NCBI GenBank assembly: GCA_016218065.1
Contig: JACRFA010000044.1
Coordinates: 1 to 37,366, forward strand
DNA from: Ignavibacteriota bacterium
GTDB lineage: Bacteria; Bacteroidota; Ignavibacteria; UBA10030; UBA6906
Direction of reading: 5' to 3'
DNA length: 37,366 nucleotides
Each line of letters starts with the position of its first letter. Within the stretch, counting starts at the first letter, position 1. A program made the translations under genes and the position numbers. The notes under the pieces are model-generated. The model worked only from the letters and a program-made list of their open reading frames with translations, searched no databases and was not told the origin of the DNA. Below are positions 16,768 through 19,947 of the stretch, one piece after another.

Positions 16768-16795
16768 TTGTTGAATCGTGATCCGATGGGAATGC

Positions 16796-18109
16796 ATGAA
16801 CATTATTGAGTCCATACAGCGTGCCGGCGTCGTGGGCGCGGGCGGCGCGGGATTTCCCGCGCATGTCAAGGCCGCGTCCAAAGTCGATACCGTCATCGCG
16901 AACGGCGCCGAGTGCGAGCCTTTGATCCACAAGGATCTTGAGCTGATGATTCATTTCGCCGACCGCGTTGTTCACGGACTCACGTTGCAGATGCGCTCGA
17001 CGGGAGCGACGACCGGCATCATCGGAGTCAAGTCGAAAAACAAGGCGGCAGTTGAAGCGTTCGAGAAAGCGATTGCCGGAACGCCGCTCACGATTTTCCA
17101 GCTCGGCGATTTCTATCCCTCCGGCGACGAATATATTCTCGTCTATGAAGCAACGAAGCGACTCATCCCTCCGCAAGGTATTCCGCTGAACATTGGCGTT
17201 GTCGTGAACAACGTCGAGACGCTGTACAACATCTCGCAGGCAAGCGAAGGGAATCCGGTGACGGAGAAATTTGTGACTGTCGCCGGCGCTGTCCGCAATC
17301 CCGCGACGTTCATTGCTCCAATCGGGATGACGTATCGCGAGGCAATCGAATCAGCTGGCGGCGCGACTGTTTCTGAGTATGCTGTGTTCGTCGGCGGCAT
17401 CATGATGGGCAAGCTTGAGTTCGACTTCAATCTCCCCATCACGAAAACAACAGCCGGCCTCGTCGTGCTTCCGGTCGATCATACGCTCGTGCAGCGAAAG
17501 TCGCAGCCGGAAAAGTCCATGCATCGCATCGGCAAGTCCGCTTGCGATCAATGTAGTTACTGCACAGAGCTGTGTCCGCGGTATGTTCTCGGCTACGATG
17601 TGCAGCCGCACAAAGTGATGCGCAGTCTGAGCTTCACGGCCACGGGCGAAGCGATCTGGAATCAGTATGCGGCGCTCTGCTGCGCTTGCGGTTTATGCAC
17701 ATTGTATGCGTGCCCCGAAGCTCTCTTCCCCAAAGAAGCGTGCGACAAAAGCAAGCGCGATATGAAAACGGAGGGAATCACGTGGTCGGGCAAAACGGAA
17801 GTCGAACCTCACCCGATGTACGAAGGCCGACGGACGCCTCTGAAGATGTTGATGAAGCGACTGGGCGTTCTTGAGTACGATCGCGAGTCGGAGTTCGTGA
17901 CGGACGTTCGCCAACCGAGCAAAGTCGAGATCCCACTTGCCCAGCATGCCGGCGCGCCCGCAACAGCCGTGGTGAAACCCGGCGACTCCGTGCGCAAGGG
18001 TCAGGTCATCGGCGAGATTGCGGACGGTCAACTCGGTGCGATAGTGCATGCAAGTATTGGTGGAGTTGTGAAGAATGTGGGTAGTGCCGTGGTGATTCAC
18101 CACGAATGA
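16796..18109 (+). CDS. pduS: PduS-like flavin/Fe-S electron carrier of bacterial microcompartments
   Basis: A 437-residue RnfC/PduS protein. In propanediol microcompartments PduS is an FMN and Fe-S NADH-dependent reductase that keeps cobalamin active and may shuttle electrons. Seen: VVGAGGAGFPAHVKA (residues 12-26) and ANGAECEPLIHKD (NADH/FMN region), an SLBB domain near 160-205, two 4Fe-4S sites (Cys250/253/256/260 and Cys295/298/301/306, the latter in the LYACPEAL context typical of PduS), and a C-terminal barrel-sandwich motif (VKPGDSVRKGQVIGE). ATG 16796 is chosen over a GTG at 16778. The last codons (IHHE, stop) are part of a dispersed repeat unit starting at 18095. Next on the strand, beyond the repeats, is pduT. 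Confidence 0.88.
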   Translation: MNIIESIQRAGVVGAGGAGFPAHVKAASKVDTVIANGAECEPLIHKDLELMIHFADRVVHGLTLQMRSTGATTGIIGVKSKNKAAVEAFEKAIAGTPLTIFQLGDFYPSGDEYILVYEATKRLIPPQGIPLNIGVVVNNVETLYNISQASEGNPVTEKFVTVAGAVRNPATFIAPIGMTYREAIESAGGATVSEYAVFVGGIMMGKLEFDFNLPITKTTAGLVVLPVDHTLVQRKSQPEKSMHRIGKSACDQCSYCTELCPRYVLGYDVQPHKVMRSLSFTATGEAIWNQYAALCCACGLCTLYACPEALFPKEACDKSKRDMKTEGITWSGKTEVEPHPMYEGRRTPLKMLMKRLGVLEYDRESEFVTDVRQPSKVEIPLAQHAGAPATAVVKPGDSVRKGQVIGEIADGQLGAIVHASIGGVVKNVGSAVVIHHE

Positions 18110-18322
18110 CACAGAAGAGGCGCGAATCGACACGGATTATTGAAAACAACATTTCAAAAAGCAATTCGCGAACATCCGTGCTGTTTTCGTGTAATTCGTG
18201 GTTCCATCCCGGGAGAATTCGCCACGAATAACACGGAAGAGGCGCGAATCGACACGGATGTTTAGGACAGTCAATTCGCGATCATTCGTGCAGTTTTCGT
18301 GTAATTCGTGGTTGCTTTGCCT
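18095..18322. repeat. repeat array, units 1-2 of a ~122-bp imperfect palindrome
   Basis: Two copies begin at 18095 (ATTCACCACGAATGACAC) and 18217. Each unit opens with CCACGAAT.ACAC.GAAGAGG, then CGCGAATCGACACGGAT, and closes with AATTCGCG..CATCCGTG, a TTTTCGTGTAATTCGTGG arm and GTTCCATC. The opening and closing arms are near inverse complements, so a unit can fold on itself. Unit 1 overlaps the end of pduS and supplies its stop codon. Unit 2 ends about 80 bases before the GxxExxY gene. Confidence 0.9.
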
Positions 18323-18402
18323 GAGAATCGACCGCAAATGGTATTGATTGTCTTCAGAAGTTTCGAACTCACTACATCCTAACACCGAACAGGAGTATCG
18401 TC

Positions 18403-18846
18403 ATGCTTCATGAAGAATTGTCCCATAAGATCATCTCAGCCTACTATACTGTTTACAACAAATTGGGTTTTGGGTTCCTGGAGAAGGTGTATGAGAATGC
18501 TATGCGAATCGAACTTAGGAAACTTGGGTTTCAGGTTGAGCAACAGAAGCAAATCAATGTATTCTATGAAGGGGAAAATGTTGGCGAATATTACGCCGAC
18601 ATCATTGTAAACAATCTTGTAATACTTGAATTGAAGGCAGTAGACTCGCTTGCTCCAGTGCATGAAGCGCAGCTCATCAATTACCTTAAGGCGACCGAGA
18701 TCGAGTTGGGATTACTCTTCAATTTCGGTCCGAAGCCCGAATTCCTTCGAAGGATATTCACAAACAATCGAAAAAATCTTCTTGCAAAGACGCAATTCAC
18801 CACCAACGACACAGAAGACACTACGAATGACGAAGAGGAGAAATAA
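18403..18846 (+). CDS. GxxExxY protein (PD-(D/E)xK nuclease-like)
   Basis: A 147-residue GxxExxY protein. The naming motif is at Gly24-Glu27-Tyr30 in GFGFLEKVYENA. Asp66 in YYADIIV and Glu76-x-Lys78 in LVILELKAV match the D-xn-ExK core of PD-(D/E)xK nucleases; the family is widespread but no function is proven to my knowledge. ATG 18403 has AGGAG seven bases upstream. The last 17 residues (FTTNDTEDTTNDEEEK region) are translated from the left arm of a repeat unit that starts at 18795, so gene and repeat are fused. It sits in the middle of seven repeat copies between pduS and pduT and looks like an insertion into the microcompartment operon. Confidence 0.9.
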   Translation: MLHEELSHKIISAYYTVYNKLGFGFLEKVYENAMRIELRKLGFQVEQQKQINVFYEGENVGEYYADIIVNNLVILELKAVDSLAPVHEAQLINYLKATEIELGLLFNFGPKPEFLRRIFTNNRKNLLAKTQFTTNDTEDTTNDEEEK

Positions 18847-19380
18847 TTCGCAGGCATCCGTGCAGTTTTCGCGTAATTCGTGGTTCCATCTTAGGAGAAT
18901 TCACCACGAATGACACAGAAGAGGCGCGAATCGACACAGATTATTGCAGACAACATTTCAAGAAACAATTCGCGAACATCCGTGCTGTTTTCGTATGATT
19001 CGTGGTTCCATCTTAGGAGAATTCACAGCGAATGACACAGAAGAGGCGCGAATCGACACGGATTATTGAAAACAACATCTCAAAAAAGAATTCGGGAACA
19101 TCAGTGCAGTTTTCGCGTAATTCGTGGTTCCATCTCGGGAGAATTCACAACGAATGACACAGAAGAGGCGCGAATCGACACGGATTATTGAAAACAACAT
19201 CTCAAAAAAACAATTCGCGAAACATCAGTGCAGTTTTCGCGTAATTCGTGGTTCCATCTTAGGAGAATTCACAACGAATGACACAGAAGAGGCGCGAATC
19301 GACACAGATTTTTGAAAACAACATCTCAAAAACACTTCGCGAACATCCGTGCAGGTTTCGCGTAATTCGTGGTTCCATCT
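18795..19380. repeat. repeat array, units 3-7 of a ~122-bp imperfect palindrome
   Basis: Unit 3 (18795-18897, shortened and diverged in the middle) contains the 3' end of the GxxExxY gene. Units 4 to 7 begin at 18899, 19021, 19143 and 19267, a period of 122-124 bases. The units differ by scattered substitutions (e.g. CACCACG, CACAGCG, CACAACG at the opening). The last ends 15 bases before the pduT start. Long frames can be read through it, but they are repeat translations and not genes. Confidence 0.93.
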
Positions 19381-19395
19381 CTATAGGGTGAGAGT

Positions 19396-19947
19396 ATGAC
19401 GAAAAACTCAATCGGCTTGATTGAGCTGGGCAGCATCGCTGCCGGCTTCGAGGTGGCAGACGCGATGCTGAAGGCCGCCGATGTCGAGATACTGCTTGCA
19501 CGCTCGATCTGTTCCGGTAAATACATGGTGCTGATCGGCGGGGATGTTGCCGCTGTGAAAGCAAGCGTCGATGCTGGAACGGCGATCGGTCGAGGATGCG
19601 TGATCGACACGTTCGTCATACCGAACGTGCACGAGTCCGTCTTTCCCGCCATCTCCGGCGCGTCAAAAGTTGATCGCTTCAACGCGATGGGCATCATTGA
19701 GTCATTCTCGGTTGCATCGTTGATTGAAGCGGCTGATGCCGCAGTAAAGGCAGCAGCAGTAGAACTGATTGAGATTCGTTTGGCAATGGCGCTCGGCGGA
19801 AAAGCATTTTGCACAATGACAGGCGATGTTGCCGCTGTGCGTTCAGCAGTCGATGCGGGCGCTGCGGTGGTTGCGGAGAAAGGATTGCTTGTGAACAAGG
19901 TCGTGATTCCTTCTCCCCGGAAAGAACTGTTGAGTGAGGTAATTTAA
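19396..19947 (+). CDS. pduT: tandem-domain microcompartment shell protein, PduT-like (BMC-T)
   Basis: A 183-residue BMC-T protein made of two BMC domains: SIGLIELGSIAAGFEVADAMLKAADV (residues 5-30) and AMGIIESFSVASLIEAADAAVKAA (96-119) are the two repeat openings, each closed by a GGDVAAV/TGDVAAVRSAVDAG block. BMC-T trimers form pseudohexameric shell tiles. Cys39 in SICSGKY corresponds to the PduT cysteine (Cys38 in Salmonella) that holds a 4Fe-4S cluster at the pore. The neighbouring pduS supports electron transfer across the shell. ATG 19396 has AGGGTGAG upstream. No other shell protein (BMC-H, BMC-P) is in the window. Confidence 0.93.
   Translation: MTKNSIGLIELGSIAAGFEVADAMLKAADVEILLARSICSGKYMVLIGGDVAAVKASVDAGTAIGRGCVIDTFVIPNVHESVFPAISGASKVDRFNAMGIIESFSVASLIEAADAAVKAAAVELIEIRLAMALGGKAFCTMTGDVAAVRSAVDAGAAVVAEKGLLVNKVVIPSPRKELLSEVI

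Follow-up and report, generated by a model that had tools for sequence, protein, structure and literature searches.

A GxxExxY nuclease gene bracketed by inverted word arrays: a probable insertion element whose protein appears to recognise its own repeats

Why does a gene for a small nuclease-like protein lie inside an array of palindromic repeats that splits a microcompartment operon, and do gene and repeats behave as one entity? The question is raised by contig JACRFA010000044.1 of an Ignavibacteriota bacterium, of which positions 1-37,366 are hereafter referred to as the window. A sequence-only reading had described seven palindromic units around a GxxExxY gene between pduS and pduT, and had proposed a mobile or repeat-maintaining system in which the protein recognises or spreads the units. 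The array is indeed present: seven repeat units of ~122 bp, at positions 18095-19380, surround the gene, with two units on its 5' side and five on its 3' side, and shuffled sequence gives no units. The array and the gene sit between a PduS/RnfC-like gene and a PduT-like BMC shell gene, and the features are as follows:

16778-18109, + strand: upstream host gene, PduS/RnfC-like; its C-terminus (..VVIHHE*) is formed by the unit 1 left arm
18099-18138, + strand: unit 1 left arm, words CACGAAT / CACAGAA / CGCGAAT / CACGGAT (repeat search, word-dyad scan)
18163-18202, - strand: unit 1 right arm, inverted words (repeat search, word-dyad scan)
18222-18260, + strand: unit 2 left arm (repeat search, word-dyad scan)
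18273-18312, - strand: unit 2 right arm (repeat search, word-dyad scan)
18403-18846, + strand: GxxExxY gene (PF13366 / TIGR04256), predicted RecB/Cas4-like PD-(D/E)XK nuclease, 147 aa (profile match, model, alignment)
18794-18838, + strand: unit 3 left arm, degenerate, inside the 3' end of the GxxExxY gene
18845-18884, - strand: unit 3 right arm
18903-18942, + strand: unit 4 left arm (repeat search, word-dyad scan)
18967-19006, - strand: unit 4 right arm (repeat search, word-dyad scan)
19025-19064, + strand: unit 5 left arm
19089-19128, - strand: unit 5 right arm
19147-19188, + strand: unit 6 left arm
19212-19252, - strand: unit 6 right arm
19271-19310, + strand: unit 7 left arm
19334-19373, - strand: unit 7 right arm
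19396-19947, + strand: downstream host gene, PduT-like two-domain BMC shell protein

Within each unit, a spacer of roughly 14-26 bp separates the left arm from the right arm; full copies share 87-92% identity with one reference copy, and the start-to-start spacing is 110-124 bp, excepting the gap that holds the gene. The repeats run into two coding sequences. The stop codon of the PduS/RnfC-like gene (18107-18109) falls within the unit 1 left arm, which the sequence-only reading had not mentioned, and the last ~17 residues of the GxxExxY protein are encoded by the degenerate unit 3 left arm, as had been noticed from the sequence; this repeat-encoded tail is disordered in the structural model (pLDDT < 50, residues 127-147). 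The upstream neighbour is PduS/RnfC-like; the downstream gene scored 132.8 with TIGR02526 (PduT), below the cut-off of 250.3, and is therefore labelled PduT-like rather than PduT. An Rfam search of the window found no family.

The window protein matched TIGR04256 (GxxExxY) with 141.7 bits (cut-off 35) and PF13366 with an E-value of 2.3e-42 (144.5 bits, cut-off 22), and PDDEXK_3 (PF13366) was the sole family matched in a library search. A sequence search for a solved structure of this protein found none; its model (pLDDT 87) has a PD-(D/E)XK fold, with Cas4 SSO0001 and lambda-type exonucleases as the best structural matches and AdnAB also among the nearest folds. Many PD-(D/E)XK enzymes score alike in this comparison, so the assignment is no closer than RecB/Cas4-like. 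Residues E27, D66, E76xK78 and the QxxxY motif (Q90-Y94) are invariant in an alignment of 53 relatives, and catalysis has therefore probably been kept. The family is common, as the sequence-only reading had said: at least one GxxExxY gene is present in about half of the 148 genomes sampled from the phylum. A search of viral contigs yielded a single relative. Gene fragments are also seen in other genomes; in G039 (the genome of locus L037), for example, 25 PF13366 matches were found, many of them fragments or with stops, as in a decaying multicopy family. A literature search of open papers, most subscription journals being outside its scope, found no function for GxxExxY proteins and no link between them and repeats, and an earlier description is possible.

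The source genome contains four GxxExxY genes, and all four lie inside palindromic arrays that differ in sequence: CACGAAT-type in the window, CACGAAG on contig C208, CACAGAT on C260 and CGCAAAG-like on C179. These loci top the local-repeat ranking among the stretches of this genome that were examined. The arrays are a property of the gene rather than of the genome. The same association extends over many phyla, and homologues elsewhere proved to carry repeats too. The upstream and downstream flanks of 114 non-redundant genes matched as inverted repeats with a median score of 18.5, versus 10 for mispaired flanks, and 70% of these genes exceeded the 99th percentile of control segments. With the threshold at the control 99th percentile, two inverted arms were found around 83% of 212 GxxExxY genes versus 1% (1/96) of control ORFs, likewise with intergenic flanks; the other 17% of the genes score under the threshold. 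Bracketed examples also occur in single-contig genomes, so assembly error is not the cause of the brackets. Inverted terminal repeats, a criterion for MITEs and classical insertion sequences, are thus present at these loci; the arms lie close to the gene ends, and the downstream arm is not inferior in quality to the upstream arm.

A four-word search showed the plan of the arms. Each contains four copies of a locus-specific word of ~7 nt, the right arm holding the same words inverted, and the commonest word spacing in both arms is 9-9-10 bp. The words seen include CACGGAT, CACAGAG, CACGAAG, CACAAAG, CGCGGAT, AATTCTG and AATCATA, among others. Fixed-period autocorrelation is weak at these flanks because the spacing alternates between 9, 9 and 10. 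It had been supposed from the sequence that each unit, as an imperfect inverted repeat, could fold. Two of three single units do fold better than shuffles as RNA (z-scores of -1.9 and -2.9), but the third does not (+0.1), and at 48 loci paired word slots were no more alike than unpaired ones (0.801 vs 0.780), with no pairing in the spacers (0.398 vs 0.457). Pairing between the arms is not conserved, whereas the words are conserved in every slot of both arms, a pattern that speaks for protein-read sites rather than for a stem in RNA or DNA.

Words and protein change together. The more alike two proteins are, the more alike are their words (Mantel rho 0.42; the largest of 999 null values was 0.21), and paralogues in one genome share words no more than other pairs do. 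The words were aligned to the register C-R-C-N-R-A-K, in which base 5 is G or A, and words outside this common register were left out of the base-5 test. In the combined set, threonine at protein residue 7 goes with G at base 5 in 81/81 cases (three ties excluded) and alanine, glycine, valine or isoleucine with A in 17/17; serine is found 19 times with A and 13 times with G. On the tree of the discovery set, built without the residue-7 column, 6/7 base-5 changes fall on the same branch as a residue-7 change (p ~1e-8; next-best column 1e-2). The rule that threonine gives G and other residues A was applied to 80 previously unused genes, of which 42 had in-register words: threonine went with G in 15/16, with one tie, and alanine, glycine or isoleucine with A in 8/8, serine being split 9/9, an ambiguity recognised only after this test. 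Residue 7 was again the top column on the combined tree (p 7e-6), on which 7/16 base-5 changes coincide with a residue-7 change on the same branch, a weaker result than that from the discovery set. Correlations also exist between the last base of the word and residues 18, 25 and 28; there are too few changes on the tree for a test, and we therefore make no claim for this base. Residue 7 lies on the first helix of the model and is a serine in the window protein, which fits the A of its word CACGAAT. This co-variation strongly supports the earlier proposal that the nuclease-like protein recognises its repeats, and argues strongly that GxxExxY proteins recognise their own words; we infer that protein and words would be in direct contact, on double-stranded DNA.

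The proposal of a mobile system is supported by empty sites and by gene-less copies in trans. An empty pduS-pduT gap was found in G002, a genome of the same genus, and another genome of this genus, G001, has an orthologous GxxExxY gene (74% identity) within a single split unit at that position. The C260 gene array is missing at the corresponding sites of both relatives, as is that of C179; at the C179 junction, G001 has another gene-less dyad, whose CGCTGAG-type words resemble those of a gene located elsewhere in that genome. A gene-less unit at C245:8360-8436 separates two genes that share an ATGA overlap in G001 and G002, where the unit is absent. The inserts in these cases lie at or just past a stop codon. 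Neither a target-site duplication nor an exact excision product was seen; for target-site duplications, the empty-site junctions of G001 and G002 are too diverged. Presence and absence at orthologous sites in two relatives of the same genus indicate that arrays and units are mobile, although any single site could instead reflect a loss. Of 78 co-directional gene pairs, 77 have the GxxExxY gene in sense, which suggests expression by read-through; in a set of 114 loci, it is in sense relative to the upstream gene in 93/99, and convergent gaps are used more than divergent ones (16 vs 5). Other inserts occur in the same gap: it holds a four-helix-bundle gene in G020 and G021 (L230, L210) and a gene-less CACAAAG-type dyad in G026 (L211), and pduS-pduT is thus one gap taken by several kinds of insert.

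A word-dyad scan of 1.06 Mb of the source genome detected 16 units, and shuffled sequence gave 0. Six clear solo units lie outside the gene loci, with words that are all of the type of one of the four resident genes, contrary to the case of units lacking any link to GxxExxY genes, which the sequence-only reading had named as refuting. The word match between solo units and resident genes is suggestive rather than strong, since the word grammar is common to the whole family; the exception is the C132 solo unit, the left arm of which repeats the C208 arm word for word. Units of the C179 type are present on several other contigs. The 3' end of the gene is retained in units of C260 (56 bp at 100% and 96%) and C179 (40 bp at 92%), so these at least arose from gene-bearing copies by internal deletion. 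The matches L269 and L272 were dropped as solo units because they look like simple repeats, and C185:92-213 (L280), nearly identical to the C208 array, is probably the same locus cut by assembly. A 400-kb sample of G001, taken at a distance from the GxxExxY genes of that genome, gave no units in the same dyad scan.

We therefore suggest, with a probability of roughly 0.68, that the GxxExxY locus is an insertion element in which the nuclease recognises arrays of words on either side of its own gene. The element would comprise a left arm (about four words of ~7 nt, usually spaced 9-9-10 bp), the nuclease gene and a right arm with the words inverted, and would sit at stop codons in sense orientation, probably being expressed by read-through. 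Its minimal RecB/Cas4-like PD-(D/E)XK protein would recognise its own words, with residue 7 of helix 1 reading word base 5, and many monomers could load on both ends of the gene. Internal deletion of the gene would leave gene-less units of ~90-125 bp, which could multiply in tandem (seven in the window) and spread in trans; monomers on the eight words of a unit may bring its two ends together. We infer that cutting or processing of DNA by the nuclease, at the words, would drive copying through repair, which may carry the unit to a new place or lengthen the array.

The same observations could be read in other ways. The words might be operators for the transcription of the protein's own gene, the arrays then being immobile and no element at all. 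The protein does appear to read the words, and the arms are close to the gene ends. However, the downstream arm matches the upstream one in quality, the genes follow other genes in the same sense, an arrangement expected if they had no promoter of their own, and gene-less units occur in trans, including insertions missing from relatives; self-regulation is therefore an unlikely account of the arrays. Alternatively, the arms might form a hairpin in a polycistronic mRNA that is processed, like the intervening sequences of 23S rRNA, or that protects the operon transcript, with the protein acting on RNA. The two units that fold better than shuffles and the nearly invariable sense orientation are consistent with this. 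One unit folds no better than shuffles, paired slots are no more alike than unpaired ones, spacers do not pair, and in RNA the right arm would hold only the complements of the words, so that we consider an RNA element very improbable.

The nearest folds, the end-processing nucleases Cas4 SSO0001, lambda exonuclease and AdnAB, bring to mind a Chi-like system or recombination hot-spot, in which a RecB-like nuclease would degrade DNA and be stopped or redirected by its own oriented words, these protecting the gene and helping it to spread by homologous recombination rather than by transposition. The QxxxY motif and the opposite orientation of the words on the two sides of the gene fit such a system, but alone it does not explain how a gene-less unit came to be inserted at a new site, and we regard it as improbable. 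An insertion element with a word-reading nuclease remains our preferred reading. We also lean, with somewhat less assurance, towards an undescribed class of self-spreading element, defined by a small RecB/Cas4-like nuclease, a helix-1 residue-to-base code, 4+4 heptamer arrays at both gene ends, word specificities that would have arisen anew repeatedly, and gene-less derivatives that would form interspersed palindromes in the host genome. The dependence of the words on a single residue gives the GxxExxY family a testable job, and its genes provide a ready-made set of nucleases, each paired with its target words. These elements also suggest an origin for many interspersed palindromes of environmental genomes.

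The closest parallel is with the REP-associated tyrosine transposases and their REP palindromes (REPIN/RAYT; PMC3116915, PMC3686654), in which, likewise, a single nuclease gene is flanked by its own palindromic repeats, gene-less copies occur in trans and each gene has a different repeat class. However, the GxxExxY enzyme is unrelated, being PD-(D/E)XK and not HUH/Y1, and its repeats consist of phased words, 4+4, in which hairpin pairing is not under selection. Filing the element under REPIN/RAYT was rejected on account of this unrelated enzyme and of the hairpin, which is not conserved. An apparent REP-associated (Y1-type) transposase gene with its own, different palindromes is found at C208:522-1292 (L106), a contig that it shares with the C208 GxxExxY gene. 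Like MITEs, the gene-less inverted-repeat units occur in trans and some retain pieces of the parent gene; unlike in MITEs, the parent enzyme is not a known transposase, and no target-site duplication was seen at the diverged empty-site junctions. The predicted fold and the E...D...ExK...QxxxY residues are shared with Cas4/RecB nucleases (SSO0001, lambda exonuclease), but the GxxExxY gene differs from Cas4 in being bracketed by its own word arrays. No cas gene was recognised beside the window gene, the immediate neighbours of which are the PduS-like and PduT-like genes.

The genes for PF05635 four-helix-bundle proteins, or 23S rRNA intervening-sequence proteins, are also small, lie at gene ends and have inverted arrays of short words, but their protein is unrelated and their words recur every 7 bp rather than every 9-10. 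The window protein did not match PF05635 in the family library search, matching only PF13366. The PF05635 genes of relatives (L220-L249) have a strict 7-bp word period, with a match fraction at lag 7 of 0.337 vs 0.258 in control segments, and with their inverted arrays they represent a second gene-plus-word family.

Three further features were observed outside these families. At L113:1830-2130, a tRNA-like gene has its 3' part repeated behind it in three tandem copies, with a spacer. In the window, a short tandem repeat with a 9-bp unit (CCAACACT-like) lies between two genes at 1095-1140, and a PIN-domain gene (PF01850; 5678-6061, - strand) is located amid suf-type genes, with no obvious partner gene.
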